Origin: a virus
Strand: one strand, 5' to 3'
Length of the DNA stretch: 49,650 bases
Virus record (IMG/VR): IMGVR_UViG_3300027917_000064
Coordinates: 1-49,650 of that record
The stretch's first letter is position 1. Every line of letters starts with the position of its first letter. Below the pieces are notes generated by a model that did not search any database, was not told the origin of the DNA, and was given only the letters and a program-made list of their open reading frames with translations. Shown piece after piece: positions 23,924 through 37,390 of the stretch. A program made the position numbers and the translations under genes.

Positions 23924-24394
23924 TCACACTCCGACAGAAGTGGATCCATCTGTTCTTCCAAACGGGGATTTTCCAAGCCACTGTTCAATGTCTCCCCTTG
24001 TGTCGATGATAATTCCGTTGGGGTCGAAGACCTTGTAGGGTTTGCTAGTACGCTCCTTGAGATAGTCAATAGTTTTCTTAACACCAGTCTCACTCTCCTC
24101 TAGAAAAACAAGGACAACATCAGAGTTGTCAATGATTTGTTTGTTGCGAAAGAAGAAGTACTTTGGATCGTGGGGTGCCTTGTGATCCACGAAGTTGTAA
24201 GGCTTGAATACAATGTAATCATAGCCCTCATCTAAGACTACCTCTTTTGCTATACGTTCACAGCCTTTTGATTCACCTCCAATAAACACTAGGGGTATAC
24301 AATCATCTTCCAAAAAACGTGTGACATTCTGAATAGACATACGGATGATGTCGTCGTTCATTATCTTACGGCTTCCAATCAATCCAATCTTCAT
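23924..24394 (-). CDS. SLOG/DprA-fold nucleotide-binding protein
   Basis: A 156-residue Rossmann-like protein. It starts MKIGLIGSRKIMNDD, then has PLVFIGGESKGCERIAKEVV (a G-G-x-x-x-G loop followed by helix) and IIDNSDVVLVFLEESETGVK. These match the SLOG/DUF2493 group, which binds nucleotides or ligands and occurs in phages and defence contexts. Its ATG overlaps the TGA of the ribonucleotide reductase gene (ATGA), implying translational coupling and possibly a role in nucleotide metabolism. The exact ligand is unknown. Confidence 0.68.
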   Translation of the reverse strand: MKIGLIGSRKIMNDDIIRMSIQNVTRFLEDDCIPLVFIGGESKGCERIAKEVVLDEGYDYIVFKPYNFVDHKAPHDPKYFFFRNKQIIDNSDVVLVFLEESETGVKKTIDYLKERTSKPYKVFDPNGIIIDTRGDIEQWLGKSPFGRTDGSTSVGV

Positions 24395-26289
24395 GGTATC
24401 TCACATCCTCCTGCTGTACAGGCTAGTTCCTGACTTCCCGTTGTGGTGTCGTCACCTTCTTTGAACTCGGACCAGTCGATGTTGTTGGGCATCTTTTCTT
24501 GGAACGCTTGGTACTCTTCCTTGGTGATCTCCTCGTAAGGAGCCTGTCTATAGCTACCATTGTCGTAAGGTAGAAAAGAAACACCCGAGAGGATATCGAA
24601 GTGACGATAGACCCAAGCCCCGACATCGAGCCACTCGTGTTCTCTGACGTATACTGTGATGGACGGTTTGTGCTCACACCAGTTCTCCTGATAGTGCTTC
24701 CAAAGTTCAAGCTGCTCAAGCGCAGTCATGTCATCCTTAAGGTAACTAGTATCCGGTGCCTTCTGTGGAAAAGAAAAGACCCAAGCACTCTTGTTGTAGA
24801 AATCTTCTTCGTGCGGGAATCCCTTTAGTCGCATCCAATCAGCCATTGGGTCTTTCTTATCAAATCGAACTCTCCGCAGATAGTATCTCGAATAGCGGGG
24901 ATGTATTCCAGAAGCGGTCCCGGCAAGCTGTGAGACGGTCCCACTTGGTTTAACGCAAGTAACTCCGTGAGACGGCTCAATACCAATGAGTGCACTGTAA
25001 GTTGCGTTTGCGGAAATTGCAGCGTCACGTAGTGTCGATAGGAGTCTTCCACTGGCGTCGCTAACGCTTGACGCAAGAAGGTGATCGCAGATTCCTGTGA
25101 GTGATACACCCAATAATCTCTCTTCCTCGGTATTAGTAACCCATTTTCTACCCAAGTAGCGAAAATTTGTGAGAGAAGATTGTAGTGTTCCCAAGATTGC
25201 GGCGTAGACAACTTTGGTATACAAGGTGTCGCTTGTATCGCTATGCTGAACAACAACCTCGCTGAGATTGCAGAATTGATTCGGTCTAAGAATGATCTCA
25301 CTACACGGATTTGTACCATAGTCCACATCACTTGGTCTTCGGTCATTCCTAGCTGCCTGAGCTTGGCTAGCTGGGCGAGAAAAGATACCACGCTCTCCTG
25401 ACTTACTTTCATACAGGCTCTCCCATTCCCTCATAAAGATTCCGATGTCCGGTTTCTCTGTGTATGAAACGCTGTTGTTAGCCAGCGCCCGTTGCCCGTT
25501 TGCGAGCCACCAGTCTCCTGACTTGGCGTGTCGCATTCTGTCGTCGGTGAGGTTTGAGAGGGAGATGAGGGCGGATCTCCTGACTCCTCCGACAACGATA
25601 CACTCTCCGACTTTGCACATGATGTCGTGAGCTTCGAGGCTAGTGAGTCTGCGGCCTCTTGCATTCTGGAAAACCTTGATCGTGAATTTGAACAGATCCT
25701 CAAGAGGCTCAGGGCCGCTTGCTCTACCACCGAAAGTTCGCAGAGGGCTGCCCGCAGGTCGTACTCTTGAAGTGTCCCATTTCGGCACTCCACCTCCATA
25801 GAGCAATCCGAGAAGTTCACGAAAAGCCGATGCCCATCCGATCTTACTGTCACGGACAATAATGGTAGTGTCGGTGGCGTGGAGTTCATCAGGTACCTCC
25901 GGTAATTTATTGATGTACTGTCTCTCGACGGAGAACCCTACACCAGTACCACACATGAGGATGTACATGGCTTCATCAAACGCCTTCGGAGAATCCACAG
26001 GTAGGTACGAACAGTTGTAACCTGCAACGTTGTCGCGCTTCAGTGCCTCACCAGCGGTCATCATACATCGCATTGAAGGTAGCACGTCAAGGTTCAGTAC
26101 TGCCTGTTGTAGTTCATCCCACGGAATTTCCTTCATAGCCTTTGGCTTGACACCAAGGGTACTAGTAACATGGTCCTTAAAGAAATCAAAGTAACGCTGC
26201 ACGGTTTCATCCCACGTCTCGCGCCGCCCCAAGTCAGGGCGGTACCGTGCATACCTAGACATGGCAATCATCTTTTGGTATTCATTCAT
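24391..26289 (-). CDS. nrdJ: adenosylcobalamin-dependent ribonucleotide reductase (class II)
   Basis: A 632-residue enzyme (start chosen at MNEYQKM; upstream in-frame starts lie inside the previous gene) that reduces ribonucleotides for phage DNA synthesis using vitamin B12. Key residues align with the Lactobacillus leichmannii enzyme. Cys93 (YNCSYL) and Cys340 (NQFCNLSE) form the redox pair. Cys329 and Glu331 in GTNPCSEI are the thiyl radical and acid, with the 408/410/419 spacing kept exactly. The C-terminal shuttle pair Cys624/Cys629 (ACTAGGCEIP) is present. It is shorter than the 739-residue enzyme. It is oxygen-independent but needs B12, which is notable beside the CobS/CobT-like genes. 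A one-mismatch palindrome lies at 26158. Confidence 0.93.
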   Translation of the reverse strand: MNEYQKMIAMSRYARYRPDLGRRETWDETVQRYFDFFKDHVTSTLGVKPKAMKEIPWDELQQAVLNLDVLPSMRCMMTAGEALKRDNVAGYNCSYLPVDSPKAFDEAMYILMCGTGVGFSVERQYINKLPEVPDELHATDTTIIVRDSKIGWASAFRELLGLLYGGGVPKWDTSRVRPAGSPLRTFGGRASGPEPLEDLFKFTIKVFQNARGRRLTSLEAHDIMCKVGECIVVGGVRRSALISLSNLTDDRMRHAKSGDWWLANGQRALANNSVSYTEKPDIGIFMREWESLYESKSGERGIFSRPASQAQAARNDRRPSDVDYGTNPCSEIILRPNQFCNLSEVVVQHSDTSDTLYTKVVYAAILGTLQSSLTNFRYLGRKWVTNTEEERLLGVSLTGICDHLLASSVSDASGRLLSTLRDAAISANATYSALIGIEPSHGVTCVKPSGTVSQLAGTASGIHPRYSRYYLRRVRFDKKDPMADWMRLKGFPHEEDFYNKSAWVFSFPQKAPDTSYLKDDMTALEQLELWKHYQENWCEHKPSITVYVREHEWLDVGAWVYRHFDILSGVSFLPYDNGSYRQAPYEEITKEEYQAFQEKMPNNIDWSEFKEGDDTTTGSQELACTAGGCEIP

Positions 26290-26530
26290 CTTCGTCACCA
26301 ACCTCTCTTGTTTTAATGAAGCGGGTGTACTCTTCCCACTCGATGTCTTCTGCATCGTAGTATTCTCCAACATATCCTTGTATGAGATCCCGTTGGTACC
26401 CGCGATCAACCTTCGCATAGTACTCGTGTAGTTTGTCATCGAATCTTTCAATGATGTCCTCCTGCGTGATACCTAGCTCGTCACACATTGCGTCGATGTC
26501 CATATCTAGGAAGTAATCTTTGATGCTCAT
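26282..26530 (-). CDS. small acidic hypothetical protein before nrdJ
   Basis: An 82-residue acidic, Asp/Glu/Tyr-rich helical protein (MSIKDYFLDMDIDAMCDELG). ATG 26530 sits in GAGGGTTACTAGTATG, with a palindrome copy between GAGGG and the start; a TTG five codons upstream is less likely. The 3' end overlaps nrdJ by 8 bases. The segment DELGITQEDIIERFDDKLHE resembles small DNA-mimic or HTH-like proteins, but I do not recognise a family. Confidence 0.7.
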   Translation of the reverse strand: MSIKDYFLDMDIDAMCDELGITQEDIIERFDDKLHEYYAKVDRGYQRDLIQGYVGEYYDAEDIEWEEYTRFIKTREVGDEDE

Positions 26531-30325: not shown

Positions 30326-32326
30326 TTAAGTCATAAGTTTGTGCCATGGTCCATCCCACGACACTAAGCTATATTGTACATCAACTACTAGGGGTAAGTC
30401 AAGAAAATCTGTCTTAAATAACCTTTCAAATAATGGCGCTGCCTCCTCTAGTGTGTTCTTTACCCAACGTGCGTACTCCTCTATCTTGTCAAGAGGACAC
30501 TCAAACAGAATTGAATCGTGTACTGTGTTGATCATGTGCAAGTCTTTGATGCCGTCCTCACGCAAACGGGACTCTGTGTAACCCAACATCATTGGGACTA
30601 TATCACCAGTAGCAAGTCCTTGAATTGGATAGTTGCACATCTTGGTATAAGCAGGCTCGTAGCTAAATCCCTTTGCTACGACTTTCTTATTTAATGGTAT
30701 TGCATATCTCCTGCCAGTTACAGAAGTGTGCACGCAAATAGGATTACCTTCGCTATCCTTTAATCTAAACTTACGGTACTGTTCTTCCAGATTCTTTGCC
30801 AAGCGTGCACGGTACGTCTTGATACTGGAGTATCGTTCGTAGAACTTTCTTACGATATCCCACACAATACCTTGGGAGATACCAGACTGTTCGGCTAGGG
30901 TAGGCACACCACCACCGTAGATAATTCCAAAGTCAACACCCTTGACTATGCGCCTTTGTTCCTTAGTATACCCATCACCGAATGTTTCTGACGCAATCGC
31001 ATCGTGTACATCTACACCGTTACGCAAGTCACTCAGCAACACCGGATCCTTTGAGTCATAAGCAAAGGCAACCATCTCTAGTTGTTTATAATCAGCTTCA
31101 ATGAATGCCATACCCTTTCTTGGTACGAACAAGCTCTTAACCTCACTGCTACTAGCTTGGTTCTGTAGATTAGGATTACTCTGTGAGTAGCGTCCGGTAC
31201 TAGTAATTGTCTGGTGTATGTTGGGGTGCAAGGTAGTACCCCACAACTTGGTTGGTAACGTACGCACATACGTAGATAACAACTTCTCATTCTTTTTGTA
31301 TTCACGTAGAAATTTAATAACATCTAACGTAGGCTCTACTTTCTGTAGTATGGAGTCACTGACAGTCCAGATACCCAGCTTGGTACGTCTGGCACCTACA
31401 TCTTTAGGATCTATAACACAAGGGAACGACAGCACATCGTCTTCATAAGTGTACTTCGTCTGTCCCTTTTTCTTACCAGACTTCCATACCCCGTTCTCTT
31501 TCTTCTTCTTGTAGGCGTAATCACCACCAAAGATTACGGCACTCCAAAATACATTAGAATTGATGAAGGGTGCCAAGTCATCTAGGCTAAGGGCTACTTC
31601 CATCTGAGCCTTAAGTAGACTGTTCTTCGCCTCTAGGTGTGCGGCAACAAGTGCTGAACCTTCAAGGTCAAACTCTATGCCACGATGTTCCATCCTTACC
31701 ACAGCCTTTAGTGCAGCACACTGAGTGAAGATCAACTTAAGCATACCACATCTCTTGGCTTCGTCCATCTGAGCTAAAGCAAGATTGTACGTTATGATAC
31801 AATCATTGCGTAGGTAGTCCATCAAGTCGTTCTGTTCCACATCCTCAGTCGTCTTACCTTCTGCGATAAGACGCTTTATAAGATCATCCTTCTCACCAAT
31901 CAAAAGCCCGTCTATCTTTAGAGCATCTGCCAAACTAGGCATCTTGTTTTGCTGACAAGACAACAAGTAATGGGCGATACTAGTATCCCACAGTGTGCAC
32001 GACATGAGTTGCTCGAAGGCTTCAGGGTAACGAGCCGCATAAAGTAAATCAAACTTCAGATTGTGACCACATACGATGATGTTTTTGTTAGCACCTTCTT
32101 CCATTACCTCATCATTGTTATCCCACAAATTGGGAATGAAACCTTCATAGATATAAGAATGCTTGCCATCATAAATACCAGCTAATAGCACCTCGTTACT
32201 AGTATCCCAAGGCGTAGAGGAACTAAACCCAGCACGCTTGCAGCGCATGGTAGTCTCTATATCAAATGAGAATAAGTGGCGGGATGTCTTAGTAAGTTTT
32301 GGACGAGTATCTACCTCTTTCTCCAT
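30326..32326 (-). CDS. DNA polymerase, family A with 3'-5' exonuclease
   Basis: A 666-residue replicative polymerase (start at MEKEVDTRPKL, with GAGG 10 bases upstream). The proofreading domain has FSFDIETT (Asp22, Glu24) and VCGHNLKFD. The polymerase domain has motif A FIEADYKQLEM (catalytic Asp412), motif B RRIVKGVDFGIIYGG (Lys462, Phe466, Tyr470) and motif C NTVHDSILFE (Asp604). Phe466 is the residue equivalent to E. coli Phe762, a position whose identity has been linked to phage lifestyle in viral ecology. There is no helicase fusion. It overlaps the helicase gene by 38 bases. Palindrome copies lie at 31196, 31976 and 32205. Confidence 0.95.
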   Translation of the reverse strand: MEKEVDTRPKLTKTSRHLFSFDIETTMRCKRAGFSSSTPWDTSNEVLLAGIYDGKHSYIYEGFIPNLWDNNDEVMEEGANKNIIVCGHNLKFDLLYAARYPEAFEQLMSCTLWDTSIAHYLLSCQQNKMPSLADALKIDGLLIGEKDDLIKRLIAEGKTTEDVEQNDLMDYLRNDCIITYNLALAQMDEAKRCGMLKLIFTQCAALKAVVRMEHRGIEFDLEGSALVAAHLEAKNSLLKAQMEVALSLDDLAPFINSNVFWSAVIFGGDYAYKKKKENGVWKSGKKKGQTKYTYEDDVLSFPCVIDPKDVGARRTKLGIWTVSDSILQKVEPTLDVIKFLREYKKNEKLLSTYVRTLPTKLWGTTLHPNIHQTITSTGRYSQSNPNLQNQASSSEVKSLFVPRKGMAFIEADYKQLEMVAFAYDSKDPVLLSDLRNGVDVHDAIASETFGDGYTKEQRRIVKGVDFGIIYGGGVPTLAEQSGISQGIVWDIVRKFYERYSSIKTYRARLAKNLEEQYRKFRLKDSEGNPICVHTSVTGRRYAIPLNKKVVAKGFSYEPAYTKMCNYPIQGLATGDIVPMMLGYTESRLREDGIKDLHMINTVHDSILFECPLDKIEEYARWVKNTLEEAAPLFERLFKTDFLDLPLVVDVQYSLVSWDGPWHKLMT

Positions 32327-33545
32327 CAAAGTATACCTCAAATTTACCGTGTCGTTTATCAGGTTGGGTTCGTGGTCCACCCGGTAGCTTGTTCTTTGCT
32401 ACGCTGATGTACCTAGTAGAGTCATCACCTATGTTACCTATCATAACAATGGCATCAGCTTCACCTTGGACACCAGTTTTGGATCCGTACATTTGTGACA
32501 AGTCAAGCCAAGCTTTTCCCTCTGCACTTGCATCTGCCTGCATGATTCCAACGATGGTACACTTATACTTAGTTGCGAGATTACGGACAAACTGAGCGAT
32601 CTTCCGCATCCTAGACACATCGTTTTCATCCCTATCAAAACCTCTGAGCTTGTCGAGGATGTTGATTCCGACAAGGGAGTACTCACCTCCTTTAAGATAT
32701 CTTTCGAGATCATAGACACTTAGCATACCTTCTTTATCTACTACTTTAATTCTATCTATGGTGCCCAGTGCTGCCTTGTACTTCTCTAGAGTAGCATCTT
32801 CGTCCACTGCTATGTCCAGCAGTGTCATCGCAAGTGCTGACTGGATACAGCGTACCCATATCTTACGGCCATCCTCTTCATTGTTAAAGATGATAGCCTT
32901 CTTATCCTCGGGTAGTTGCTGTGCCATGTGTGTGAACTCAGACGTAATGAACGTAGTCTTTCCTGTCTCTGGTCGAGCAGAGACGATTAAGAAGTCACCT
33001 CCGTGCACTGGTCCGATGCTGATGTTGAGGTCTTCCAGTCTCCACTCAAGACCGTGAGAGCGGACAAGATCATTGAGGATACTAGTAAGATCGTTAGTAA
33101 CAAAATAATCTTCATCAGTCTTGCCTGCACTGGATAGCTCGTTAACATACTTGTCAAGTATAGAACTACAATAGTCCAAGCTGACACCAGTATCGCCGCG
33201 AATAACACGATCACACACCTCTCTCACTTGCGCTGTGTAGTCCAGCGCTATGAACTTGTCTATGACTGCCTTATCAACAGGTGGTTCTGTTGTGATACGT
33301 TCAAAGATGGTATCGTACATCTCATACCTAGCAGCATCCCAACCGGGGTGCTGTACCATCTTGTGCCACACCTTGAAGTGTGTAAAATCAATGGGATCAT
33401 TATCAGAAAATACTTTCCAGTATTCTGCATAGTCATCAAGCAACATCATAGTCTCACGTACCACGGTGTGAGACTTAACGTGTCGTTTGAATCTATCGTA
33501 GTATCCCTTGTTCGATAGAAACTTTAGCAAAGGAATGTCTAGCAT
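32289..33545 (-). CDS. DnaB-type replicative helicase
   Basis: A 418-residue helicase (ATG 33545; a GTG four codons upstream is less likely). It has a helical N-terminal domain, then a RecA-type core with Walker A ARPETGKTTF (Lys196, Thr197), NNEEDGRKI and a Walker B-like YSLVGINILDKLRGF. The late GKAWLDLSQMYGSKTGVQGE and VAKNKLPGG segments are typical of DnaB/gp4 helicase motifs. It unwinds the fork as a hexamer with the separate primase from the adjacent gene. In T7 these two activities are fused in gp4; here they are split. It overlaps the primase gene end by one or a few bases. Confidence 0.9.
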   Translation of the reverse strand: MLDIPLLKFLSNKGYYDRFKRHVKSHTVVRETMMLLDDYAEYWKVFSDNDPIDFTHFKVWHKMVQHPGWDAARYEMYDTIFERITTEPPVDKAVIDKFIALDYTAQVREVCDRVIRGDTGVSLDYCSSILDKYVNELSSAGKTDEDYFVTNDLTSILNDLVRSHGLEWRLEDLNISIGPVHGGDFLIVSARPETGKTTFITSEFTHMAQQLPEDKKAIIFNNEEDGRKIWVRCIQSALAMTLLDIAVDEDATLEKYKAALGTIDRIKVVDKEGMLSVYDLERYLKGGEYSLVGINILDKLRGFDRDENDVSRMRKIAQFVRNLATKYKCTIVGIMQADASAEGKAWLDLSQMYGSKTGVQGEADAIVMIGNIGDDSTRYISVAKNKLPGGPRTQPDKRHGKFEVYFDGERGRYSSKTY

Positions 33546-33546
33546 G

Positions 33547-34476
33547 TCAGTGAACACCTAATACGCCATCAACAAAATCTTGTATGTCTGCAACACTGAA
33601 GTATTTAGGATCGCACTTCTTGTCGTGATCGAAGGCTGGTGTAAACATACCCACATCTTTCATGAAGATACGTAGTCTATCTGTTGTTTCTCTGGCTGCA
33701 CTGATAACAGTTGGGTTGTCCATATCCAGCCACACAAACGCTTTGTCAAACATACAAGATAGCTTGTGCACCTCAGGCAAGCTCATAACACTAGCACCGT
33801 GAAGCACACACGCAGCAAAGCCAGCTTGTGCTATCTTAACACCACTCACCCTATCCTCACAGATTACTAGTATCGGTGAGTCGTATGGGTTGAAGATGTG
33901 TGTCCCAACATGACCAAGTGTACGTACCTTTGGACAGTTGGGTTGTGCATGTACAGTAAACAGTGGCTTCAACTGTACGCCTACCATCTTGGTATCTTCA
34001 AAACAAGGCCACAGCATATATGGCATATCTAACTTACCGAGTATCTGACCAAACCCTACACCCCAGTTGTCCGCACGGCAAAGGCTGTAGTCAAGCTCCC
34101 ACTTATCCATGTACTCCTGATGCGTATTGAATGCTGGCGATAGTGCAACAGGTATGCTATGCCAAGACTTAAGGTAGTGTTGTAGCTGTTGAACAAGATG
34201 ATCTGTACTAGGTACTAGTGAAGGTACCTCAGTATGACGTGGGCTATAGATGTTAGGCACGTACCCATCAGGTTTGTACATACCTCCCTTCTGACAATTG
34301 TGGCAATAGGCTAGGAACACATCCTTAGCAGTACGTGTTATGTACAGCCGTGGCTTGTGGTCAGGCACGCCACCCTCACAATACCGATGAATCACAGCCC
34401 TTGTGGTTTCCCTGTCTAGTTCGGCTACACCGCGCTCAGCTAACTGTCTCATTTCCTCTCTGGTAAACTTAGGCAT
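33547..34476 (-). CDS. DnaG-type primase (zinc finger and TOPRIM)
   Basis: A 309-residue primase (ATG 34476 after AAGGTG; a GTG three codons upstream is less likely). The N-terminal zinc-binding set is His30/Cys33...Cys58/Cys61 (HRYCEGG, YCHNCQKGG). The TOPRIM part has VICEDRVSGVKI (Glu), then AFVWLDMDNP (Asp-x-Asp). The C-terminal helix follows FDHDKKCDPKYF. It lays RNA primers at the fork for the polymerase. It is coupled to the helicase downstream and to the CobS-like gene upstream, which it overlaps. Confidence 0.88.
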   Translation of the reverse strand: MPKFTREEMRQLAERGVAELDRETTRAVIHRYCEGGVPDHKPRLYITRTAKDVFLAYCHNCQKGGMYKPDGYVPNIYSPRHTEVPSLVPSTDHLVQQLQHYLKSWHSIPVALSPAFNTHQEYMDKWELDYSLCRADNWGVGFGQILGKLDMPYMLWPCFEDTKMVGVQLKPLFTVHAQPNCPKVRTLGHVGTHIFNPYDSPILVICEDRVSGVKIAQAGFAACVLHGASVMSLPEVHKLSCMFDKAFVWLDMDNPTVISAARETTDRLRIFMKDVGMFTPAFDHDKKCDPKYFSVADIQDFVDGVLGVH

Positions 34477-34481
34477 CTTGG

Positions 34482-35555
34482 TCACACCTTGTTCAAGTCT
34501 ATACTAGTAACCTTCATGAAGATCTCAGCGACTTGCTTCTGATCATCTTCAATCAGCTTGTTACCAAACGAAAGACGAAATGCCTTGGCAAGATCACCCC
34601 AATAAGTAACCTTCGAGGCCCATGTTACCAGACCACGAGGTGACATAGTGAAGTTGATAGTGCCAGTGTCATACCCACGACGCACGAGCGCAGCTACCTC
34701 AAGCATACGAGCGAGCCAGTCGTCAGGGATATTGGGCACCCTGCTCTTTATGACTGCTGTTTCATGTTCCTTGGATAGATAGTCTAACTGGATGGTAGTA
34801 GAGAACCTGTCAATTAGAGCCTCATTCTGCACGTTGGTTCCAGCATATCTCCCAGATGTATCACCCTGTAGCTTAGTGTTATCAGTCGCCCCGATCCTGA
34901 ACCACGGTGCAGGTTGGATGTACCGTTCACCCTTCGGCTTGTCAGGAATATAGATAGGACCGTTGGGTTCCAGCGGTGACATCAAAGCCATCGCAATACC
35001 AGCAGGCGTGGCACTGATCTCATCGCACGTTAGCATACCACCGTGCTTACCAAGCAAGGGTAACGGACCATCAATCCAGTCCAACTCACCCGCTGCAAGC
35101 GAGGGTGTACCAAAGAACGCAGAAGATTCCATGTCCTGCCTACAGTTGACACGGAACCAAGGGATACGCATACGTGCACAGATCTGCTGTTGTAATGTGG
35201 TCTTGCCACTGCCCTTCTTGCCAGTTATCAGTAACCTGTCGTTGTTCATGATGGCAACGACTGCTTCTTCTGTCTCTGCGGGTGGGAAGATGTAGCCCTC
35301 GTCCACAACAGGGATGAACTGACGTACATCCTCGTGCCAATCACTCACCTTGAAGACACGTACCGCATGGTCAATGCCACTCGGTGGCTTGATATCAAAC
35401 ACCTTGGTAAAGGGCTGCTCCCCACTTTCCAGTTTGATCTCCACCTTGATATCGTCCCTCTTATGAGACGCCTTCTTAGTCTTCCGCTTCTTTGCGGACA
35501 TCTCTTCCTCTGCTTCCTTAAGAACAGCAAAGAGTTCTTCATCCAATGACGACAT
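34482..35555 (-). CDS. CobS/MoxR-type AAA+ ATPase
   Basis: A 357-residue AAA+ protein (ATG 35555, nine bases after GGAGG; its first base overlaps the upstream TGA). It has Walker A LLITGKKGSGKTTLQQQ and Walker B GGMLTCDEIS (Asp178, Glu179). A MoxR/CobS-type insertion follows: FFGTPSL, LMSPLEPNGPIYI, then FRIGATDNTKLQGD and an arginine-finger region near ALIDRFST. CobS is the ATPase partner of CobT in cobaltochelatase; MoxR ATPases act with VWA proteins to load metals or remodel proteins. The adjacent gene is a VWA protein, forming a CobS/CobT-like pair. Confidence 0.85.
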   Translation of the reverse strand: MSSLDEELFAVLKEAEEEMSAKKRKTKKASHKRDDIKVEIKLESGEQPFTKVFDIKPPSGIDHAVRVFKVSDWHEDVRQFIPVVDEGYIFPPAETEEAVVAIMNNDRLLITGKKGSGKTTLQQQICARMRIPWFRVNCRQDMESSAFFGTPSLAAGELDWIDGPLPLLGKHGGMLTCDEISATPAGIAMALMSPLEPNGPIYIPDKPKGERYIQPAPWFRIGATDNTKLQGDTSGRYAGTNVQNEALIDRFSTTIQLDYLSKEHETAVIKSRVPNIPDDWLARMLEVAALVRRGYDTGTINFTMSPRGLVTWASKVTYWGDLAKAFRLSFGNKLIEDDQKQVAEIFMKVTSIDLNKV

Positions 35556-37390
35556 CACACAGTTCCTCCATTAAGGATGTTGTAACTAATCACCTTAAGC
35601 AACCCATCTTCCAACTCATCAGCACGTTGTATGACTACGTGCTTCTTATAAAACTGTATCACGTTCCTGTCCATGATACCAATGCCTATGATATCAGCAC
35701 GCTTCTGCTCTTCGATGTGCTGAACAACGTACTTCAGTGCGTAGTACGGATCAGTGTCACCTATCCCATCAGCAGGGGATCCATCACTGAGTACAATGAG
35801 TACCTTACGCTTGGTCTGCTGTTGCAAGAGCCTATCGTACGCAAAGTTAATAGCATCAGCATCCGCATTGCCCCACATACGTGAAGTAAAGTCATCGAAC
35901 CTACTGTATATCTGCTCATCAGTAGCCCTGATGCTGAATGGTTTGATCACGCCTACGATTGTACCGTAGTCCTCACTGAACGTCAATATTTCTGTGTTGA
36001 CACGCAGCACGTTACTAATAACGTGGTTAATTAGCATCGCACTCTTTGTTGCGTGCACCACCTTGGGTCCGTTCATGCTACCACTCATGTCTACCAGAAC
36101 AGACACACTTGTATCAAGTAAGTCCGCTTCATACTTCTTACGAAACACACGCCTGTTCCAGTCACCATCACCCACAATAGGCAAGGCAGCACGGTACAAC
36201 GCACGGTTATGGATGGTACCCTTTGTGTGACCACCCATGTACAGCGTAGCACTCTTGACTTGCAAGTACCTACGTACCCTGTTAGCAAAGGAGGTACTAG
36301 TATTCAGCTTGCTGAGGCTACCACCCTCACGGTTAAGATAGCCTGATCTTAAGGGCTTAGGATTATTGTGGTACTGCACAGTCTTGATGTTCTTTAAGTC
36401 TTCAGGTATCCAGACTTTACGAACACGGTGCTTCGCATAGTCTAGCCCAAGACCGTGACCAGCAGGATCATGTGGATCTTTGGGCTCGTGCTGTGTCTTG
36501 ACAAAGAACTCGTAAGGGATAGTGTACTTGCCTGTCCTCTCGTCCCACTGTCCTTCCTTTGCAGGCTTGCCATCACCCCGCTTGCCCACCTTTCCATCCT
36601 TGCCTCCCTTCTTCTCTTCATTCTCCTCGCTCTCTTCCGACTCACCCCTACCTTCTCCCTTTCTCAACTCCTGCATTTCCTGTTCCACTTCCTCTGGTGT
36701 CTTGTCCCAGAGTAAGCCATACAGTTTCTTAGCAAGCTCAATAGTTTCATCACCACTACCAAGGTTATTAATATCCTTGATAGCATCAGCGTGATGTAGC
36801 TTGTTGACGTACTCACTGATGTTGGGATAGGTTGAAGTGGATAGCTCAAGCTCCTCTCGCATGTGCACGCTGGCACCCGGACACCACTGTGACTGTGCTA
36901 CACCAGCAGTCAGGAACATGGCACTCATCTTGGCTGTCTCATCTGCCAACTGATCGCTTGGTACGTTGTGTACTAGTTCCTTTGTGAACTGAAGTGACTC
37001 GTGTCCTAGTATCTCACGACCATCACTGATGATACGCTCATCACCCACGTACCTAGAGGCTGCGCTCTTCTCAATGCGCTGGTCCTCTAAGATGTTGCAT
37101 ATAGCACCAAGTGGGTGCCCTATGTGCAAGCCTGTGTCCTCTACCAAATCAAGATACTCACTACCCTCAATGTGGTGAGACAACTCGTGACGCACAAAGA
37201 ACCTGAGCTTTGCCTCATCATCCACAGTCAACCGTTCATTGAACGTGGGTATTAGTAACGTCCTCTTGTTTGTGCAAGGACCGGGGATGTCATCCCTGAA
37301 CTGCACATCTATGTCATTCCTGCTGCACTCACTCCAGATCCAGCGTCGAAGGTGGTTGAGTTCATTGAGGGAGGTCTGTCCCTTTGCCAT
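35555..37390 (-). CDS. CobT-like VWA protein with N-terminal HExxH metallopeptidase-like domain
   Basis: A 611-residue protein. N-terminal residues 60-107 have RFFVRHELSHHIEG (HELSH, residues 68-72) and ICNILEDQRIEK, giving an HExxH plus downstream E/D set like a zincin. The centre (240-285) is a Lys/Glu-rich low-complexity linker. The C-terminal half is a von Willebrand A domain with an intact MIDAS (LVDMSGSMNG, Asp434-Ser436-Ser438), then LIVLSDGSPADG. CobT of cobaltochelatase has a related layout. No CobN is seen. It is paired with the CobS-like ATPase with a one-base overlap. An exact palindrome was not seen inside it; a one-mismatch copy at 36011 and others lie within. Confidence 0.82.
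   Translation of the reverse strand: MAKGQTSLNELNHLRRWIWSECSRNDIDVQFRDDIPGPCTNKRTLLIPTFNERLTVDDEAKLRFFVRHELSHHIEGSEYLDLVEDTGLHIGHPLGAICNILEDQRIEKSAASRYVGDERIISDGREILGHESLQFTKELVHNVPSDQLADETAKMSAMFLTAGVAQSQWCPGASVHMREELELSTSTYPNISEYVNKLHHADAIKDINNLGSGDETIELAKKLYGLLWDKTPEEVEQEMQELRKGEGRGESEESEENEEKKGGKDGKVGKRGDGKPAKEGQWDERTGKYTIPYEFFVKTQHEPKDPHDPAGHGLGLDYAKHRVRKVWIPEDLKNIKTVQYHNNPKPLRSGYLNREGGSLSKLNTSTSFANRVRRYLQVKSATLYMGGHTKGTIHNRALYRAALPIVGDGDWNRRVFRKKYEADLLDTSVSVLVDMSGSMNGPKVVHATKSAMLINHVISNVLRVNTEILTFSEDYGTIVGVIKPFSIRATDEQIYSRFDDFTSRMWGNADADAINFAYDRLLQQQTKRKVLIVLSDGSPADGIGDTDPYYALKYVVQHIEEQKRADIIGIGIMDRNVIQFYKKHVVIQRADELEDGLLKVISYNILNGGTV

Follow-up and report, generated by a model that had tools for sequence, protein, structure and literature searches.

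We analyzed the complete IMG/VR virus record IMGVR_UViG_3300027917_000064 (49,650 bases; hereafter, the window), with a focus on two adjacent minus-strand genes that encode a VWA protein and a CobS/MoxR-type AAA+ ATPase. The following features were delineated in this gene pair.

35555..37390, minus strand: VWA protein with an N-terminal zincin-like domain, 611 amino acids (open reading frame; CobT_C, 4.5e-18, at the VWA end only; phrog_17276, 1.3e-42)
36656..37369, minus strand: N-terminal domain, residues 8-245 (AlphaFold model of residues 1-224 and full-length model)
37175..37189, minus strand: HELSH, residues 68-72 (aligned in 70/77 viral rows)
37070..37096, minus strand: NILEDQRIE, residues 99-107, with Asp103 as the proposed third metal ligand (conservation of D103)
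35573..36112, minus strand: VWA domain, residues 427-606 (Pfam; fold matches to the NorD VWA and the MDN1 MIDAS)
36077..36091, minus strand: metal ion-dependent adhesion site (MIDAS) DMSGS, residues 434-438 (sequence; D434, S436 and S438 invariant in 41 rows)
34482..35558, minus strand: CobS/MoxR-type AAA+ ATPase, 358 amino acids (PDB sequence matches; phrog_249, 1e-51)
35199..35222, minus strand: Walker A motif GKKGSGKT of the ATPase (sequence)

The coordinates of both genes agree with the initial annotation, which had also recognized the HELSH and ILEDQRIE motifs and the VWA domain with its MIDAS, all of which are indeed present. Its description of the two genes as coupled by one base holds for an ATG start (1-nucleotide overlap, TGATG) and fails for a GTG start, with which the overlap is 4 nucleotides (GTGA).

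Relatives were identified by a profile search with alignment A1; a search of viral contigs with the single VWA protein found none. We counted the HExxH motif in 77 N-terminally complete viral rows (the window, nine named phages and 67 IMG/VR loci), leaving out 17 of the 97 loci, in which the N-terminus was cut or the open reading frame was short, and tallying separately the 13 of the remaining 80 that come from bacterial genomes. At the length and composition of the 611-residue protein, 0.06 HExxH motifs are expected by chance; because the motif is found at the aligned position in 70 of the 77 viral homologs, all 70 of which also contain D103, a chance origin is ruled out. Overall, D103 is present in 72 of the 77 viral rows and in all 33 rows of alignment A4, N99 is kept in 69 and G116 in 76 of the 77, and 7 of the 13 bacterial-genome loci encode HExxH. 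From this conservation, Asp103 is a candidate third zinc ligand.

The AlphaFold model of residues 1-224 has a predicted local distance difference test score (pLDDT) of 96.2 and a predicted template modeling score (pTM) of 0.90, with HELSH within one helix (residues 56-74) and N99, D103 and E107 within another (93-113). In a VIA structure comparison, this model displayed a weak likeness to zincins (Z up to 5.4, none at Z 8): among the matches listed, 28 of 50 are, by title, zinc peptidases or ArdC, which we take to be zincin-like. These include BepA (Z 5.4, root-mean-square deviation (rmsd) 4.3 over 131 residues), BlaR1 (Z 5.2, rmsd 4.7 over 119) and aminopeptidase N (Z 5.1, rmsd 3.6 over 68). 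In the rows for 9cam, 5lds and 4r5x, the alignment ends with model residue 75 against residues 395, 390 and 503, respectively, and an ungapped back-count places H72 on residues 392, 387 and 500, which, we assume, are the second zinc histidines of these aminopeptidases. The N-terminal domain putatively binds zinc; a buried HExxH that does not bind zinc, one of the two findings that the initial annotation had named as evidence against it, was not seen. A Foldseek search of BFVD with this domain retrieved only phage proteins, those of the CobT-VWA type first. As a lead for zinc ligands of the presumed N-x3-D type, we also considered the putative metallopeptidase DUF2201_N (PF13203), which was rejected given an HMM-HMM (hidden Markov model) probability of 3.9% and the lack of a Pfam match, in what was a weak test, with several of the 30 loci in the wrong frame.

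The ATPase has intact Walker A (GKKGSGKT at 113) and Walker B (MLTCDE at 175) motifs, and its closest match among PDB sequences is CobS (4e-36), followed by Midasin (1.5e-27) and NorQ (1.6e-10). Pfam matches of the partner (CobT_C, VWA) are confined to its C-terminal half, with 66.1 bits for the CobT_C VWA domain PF11775 (cut-off 21) and 2.5e-12 against the PDB CobT VWA, and the best fold matches of this half are the VWA domain of NorD (Z 21.6, rmsd 5.3 over 261) and the MIDAS domain of MDN1 (Midasin; Z 19.4, rmsd 3.2 over 215). The window thus encodes the components of a MoxR-type pair, namely, an AAA+ ATPase with Walker A and B motifs adjacent to a VWA protein with a MIDAS, and those of the phage MoxR-metallopeptidase arrangement, in which an N-terminal metallopeptidase-like domain is fused to VWA beside MoxR. 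In SSU5-, BUCTxx99- and nickie-type phages, the ATPase has a Cys/His-rich stretch at its N-terminus, resembling a zinc finger, that the window ATPase lacks; the sequences concerned are listed here.

L003, 6109-7344: Cys/His-rich ATPase
L007, 4746-5930: Cys/His-rich ATPase
L009, 5877-7103: Cys/His-rich ATPase
L010, 5859-7091: Cys/His-rich ATPase

A Clostridiales genome (L122, 6903-8729) encodes a VWA protein with HESGH adjoining a MoxR-like ATPase, so that the HExxH-VWA/MoxR architecture may exist outside phages.

The relationship to the bacterial proteins was examined by HMM-HMM comparison, in which the VWA domains of the phage proteins and CobT matched with a probability of 100% (E 5.8e-44) and the N-terminal domains with a probability of 80% (E 1.5e-5 over 106 columns). 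The CobT N-terminal domain PF06213 matches 7 of the 10 phage members of A1, with no match in the window by Pfam search. None of the 30 bacterial CobT proteins with available loci, drawn from 142 positive genomes, contains HExxH; H-[DN]-x3-H is found nearby in 26 of the 30, and an E-x-A-R-x-E type motif, by pattern, in 15. Given the HMM-HMM relationship and the absence of HExxH from these 30 proteins, the phage proteins are CobT homologs in which HExxH is intact. The window proteins fall far below the equivalog cut-offs, with 128.8 bits for the ATPase against CobS (TIGR01650, cut-off 558.55) and 47.6 bits for the VWA protein against CobT (TIGR01651, cut-off 759.05), whereas a bacterial control pair (L190), from a genome without CobN, passes both (621.6 and 944.3 bits). 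Phylogeny, which had been proposed for placing the pair relative to true CobT and MoxR-VWA proteins, was applied to the ATPases: in a 54-row tree that carries a long-branch warning, the nine bacterial CobS rows form one group (98/92), and the window belongs to a separate group of 20 viral rows that includes ICP2 (100/99).

Several observations were made on the bacterial pairs themselves. Vibrio splendidus (L118, 3328-5046), with a genome lacking CobN, encodes a CobS/CobT-like pair with an ATPase that adjoins the bacterial CobS clade in the tree. Among 190 alphaproteobacterial genomes, which may be incomplete, 142 encode CobT (PF06213) and 73 encode CobN/ChlH (PF02514), and 72 of the 142 CobT carriers have no CobN match; in bacteria, CobST may do more than insert cobalt. 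The chromosomal cobS-cobT genes of L186-L190, L194 and L197 adjoin genes for BolA and a J-domain protein, with AroB, a CNNM/CBS protein and ribosomal protein L28 encoded nearby, in genomes both with and without CobN (with Pfam assignments confirmed for ten proteins encoded in L190, L194 and L197).

Downstream of the pair, the minus strand of the window encodes replication proteins.

33547..34485, minus strand: primase-like protein (phrog_8634 DNA primase, 0.0016, weak)
32289..33557, minus strand: DnaB-like helicase (phrog_19, 6e-42; DnaB_C, 5.8e-13)
30326..32380, minus strand: family A DNA polymerase (DNA_pol_A, 5.6e-58)

The ATPase gene overlaps the primase-like gene by 4 nucleotides, which in turn overlaps the helicase gene by 11 nucleotides, with the polymerase gene next, so that the pair heads an overlapping replication gene run; genes for structural proteins (major head, tail appendage, terminase) lie on the opposite, plus strand. 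Of 80 viral loci, 78 have an ATPase gene no more than 2.5 kb from the VWA gene, both misses being at contig ends. Replication-type genes lie within 6 kb of the pair in 73 of the 80, on its own strand in 72 and solely on the opposite one in L099, with less than 1.6 kb of downstream sequence in 3 of the 7 misses. The same neighborhood recurs with unrelated polymerases, family A in the window and PolIII alpha in SSU5, nickie, BUCTxx99 and RHEph10, and is found around the pair in ICP2 as well; in cyanophage Syn1, the pair occurs with the clamp and clamp loader, and the partner of cobS is annotated as a 'peptidase'.

Taken together, the homology, the intact ATPase and MIDAS motifs, HExxH with Asp103, the fold prediction and the place of the pair ahead of the primase, helicase and polymerase genes point to a MoxR-VWA remodeller that includes a peptidase-like domain and whose client is probably linked to replication, a reading to which we assign a probability of about 0.55. 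The AAA+ protein (34482-35558) would assemble into a ring that docks on the VWA domain of the cochaperone (35555-37390) and passes ATP-driven movement on to whatever client the VWA protein holds; this client would be remodelled or, where HExxH is intact, possibly cut. It probably belongs to the phage replication module or is a host protein blocking that module, and we take replication as the most plausible setting given the gene run. A MoxR-VWA chaperone or protease was one of the two ideas put forward initially, and conservation, predicted fold, synteny and published precedent favor it, with the peptidase activity being putative.

Several points weigh against this interpretation. All VIA scores are below 8, a range that can reflect no more than a common arrangement, and Foldseek of the N-terminal domain against PDB gave no match at E <= 0.001; the PDB CobT chains known from the sequence search are absent among the fold matches listed, an absence from which we conclude nothing. 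HExxH is missing in 7 of the 77 viral rows (BUCTxx99, nickie, L080, L084, L088, L097 and L102), with DREVST and DSEISK in its place in the VWA partners of BUCTxx99 (L007) and nickie (L009), respectively, where the pair and the replication context are retained; judging from these sequences, proteolysis cannot be the sole role of the pair. Four loci with usable flanks (L096, L097, L105 and L107) showed no replication gene with the queries used, and the replication set, consisting of 22 query proteins from the window and annotated relatives, was not blind. Synteny with replication genes may reflect shared early timing alone, and any client is putative.

The other initial idea was that the pair supports cobalt insertion and, hence, B12 supply for the class II ribonucleotide reductase (RNR). 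As claimed, the window encodes an enzyme of this type, apart from the pair, and no CobN (CobN/ChlH, PF02514).

24391..26451, minus strand: class II-type (adenosylcobalamin-dependent) ribonucleotide reductase (phrog_367, 1.3e-185, 619.6 bits; RTPR, 5.2e-98)

Against the RTPR equivalog TIGR02505, the reductase scores 329 bits, just short of the cut-off of 340.05. We surveyed reductases in the window and nine named phages, and in 33 IMG/VR pair records of at least 30 kb out of 80 loci. An NrdA-type large subunit with the NrdB small subunit, that is, a class I, B12-independent reductase, is encoded in 6 of the 10 (SSU5, RHEph10, Syn1, BUCTxx99, nickie and pJN2-26); T5S1 has a large RNR subunit without NrdB, and no large subunit was found in ICP2 or CRP-810. 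Of the 33 records, some of which may be fragments, 7 have NrdB, 15 have a phrog_367 match without NrdB and 11 have neither, including G026 and G033, both longer than 100 kb. Relatives combining the pair with a B12-independent reductase, which the initial annotation had itself named as evidence against its idea, therefore exist. CobN/ChlH is present in 5 and absent in 8 of the 13 bacterial genomes with a match in the pair search, some of these matches being prophages or phage-plasmids and others chromosomal VWA genes. The carriers without CobN include Buttiauxella (L112), in which the ATPase is near-identical to that of SSU5 in the tree and the VWA partner has HEVAH, as well as Kluyvera (L125) and Vibrio splendidus; PF02514 is also absent from an E. 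coli control genome, and among 295 genomes from the same order as V. splendidus, only 32 have a match above the cut-off. In hosts without CobN, a phage has no CobN to hijack. Hence, the proposal, made for tailed viruses of archaea and bacteria (PMC8651126), that viral CobST hijacks host CobN, inserts cobalt and raises B12 for replication, in favor of which stand the homology to CobS and the CobT VWA, the class II-type reductase in the window and the 15 further phrog_367 records, and the five CobN-encoding genomes, appears improbable to us in view of the class I or undetected reductases, the CobN-less genomes and the low equivalog scores. The B12 interpretation of the pair is not supported, although class II-type reductases are frequent near the branch of the window, so that a link within this branch may exist.

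A further proposal, published for group 2.2 jumbo phages, is a chaperone of virion assembly that cleaves structural proteins as well; it concerns the same architecture and has a precedent in the MoxR-vWA pair of ATV cited in PMC7824862. We nevertheless regard it as unlikely, if slightly less so than the B12 proposal, because only 12 of the 57 ICP2-type loci (L029-L085) have structural genes within 6 kb, in every case on the other strand, compared to 54 with replication-type genes at this distance, and because the window pair is within the minus-strand replication arm. About as improbable as the B12 scheme is host takeover or counter-defense, in which the pair would unfold or cleave a host factor, for example, a replication blocker: MoxR-VWA pairs serve in bacterial conflict systems (PMC8195603) and the pair adjoins replication genes, but the fixed primase and helicase neighbors and the wide conservation over unrelated hosts better fit a core role. 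We see very little chance that the pair works in the manner of NorQD, as a chaperone that loads metal into a phage metalloenzyme (the reductase, for example), given that the accompanying RNR is of class I, of class II type or undetected, the last including the two large records without NrdB and phrog_367, even though the NorD VWA is its closest fold. CobST and NorQD both serve metal insertion.

Beyond a replication-linked remodeller in the window, it is conceivable, although we lean against it, that the phage "B12 set" as a whole (cobS with or without cobT, cyanophage cobS included) does not serve B12 but forms an AAA+/VWA/zinc-peptidase machine of the replication operon, resembling a split FtsH or Midasin in its remodelling, and that the CobT of bacteria is related to it, with a peptidase domain that lost HExxH and with cobalt insertion being one of several roles. 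The annotation of phage cobS as a B12 gene is doubtful in view of the class I reductases, the CobN-less hosts, the conserved HExxH and the fixed place by primase, helicase and polymerase, and a role in replication-linked remodelling or proteolysis becomes directly testable.

Bacterial CobS and CobT are homologous to the window ATPase and VWA protein, with N-terminal domains related by HMM-HMM comparison, but CobT lacks HExxH and the phage proteins miss the equivalog cut-offs. NorQ-NorD similarly combines a MoxR-type ATPase with a VWA protein, NorD being the best VWA fold match, whereas the window ATPase scores lower to NorQ than to CobS, and we know of no HExxH domain fused to this pair. Midasin/Rea1 is likewise a remodeller with AAA+ and MIDAS modules that resemble those of the window, but is one giant eukaryotic polypeptide that is not known to include a peptidase.

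In the literature, several surveys (e.g. PMC11705849, PMC9983427) count phage cobS among auxiliary metabolic genes and link it to vitamin B12, the CRP-810 paper (PMC11288001) includes cobS/cobT among auxiliary genes whose function is uncertain, and the paper on cobaviruses (PMC6775973), phages named after their B12-dependent reductase, does not mention cobS or cobT in its available part. No published proposal of a replication role for the pair was found in searches that lacked most subscription journals and were judged mostly from listings. The viral CobST of Liu et al. 2021 (PMC8651126), comprising ICP2 gp41/gp42 and the cyanophage 'peptidase' with cobS, is the same pair, with the same gene order and replication neighbors, and ICP2 is the closest named relative of the window (33-35% over the VWA half); these genes are, however, annotated as B12 genes, and the paper terms the cyanophage peptidase annotation mistaken, whereas HExxH is retained in 70 of the 77 viral rows. 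Iyer et al. 2021 (PMC7824862) described, in group 2.2 jumbo phages, a MoxR ATPase adjoining a VWA protein to which a metallopeptidase domain is fused N-terminally; this pair, which we compare by its published description, differs in that the window pair is encoded in a record of ~50 kb and heads a replication run. The architecture, accordingly, is already published in these two papers, and the novelty of the present analysis is in the evidence that decides between the published readings.

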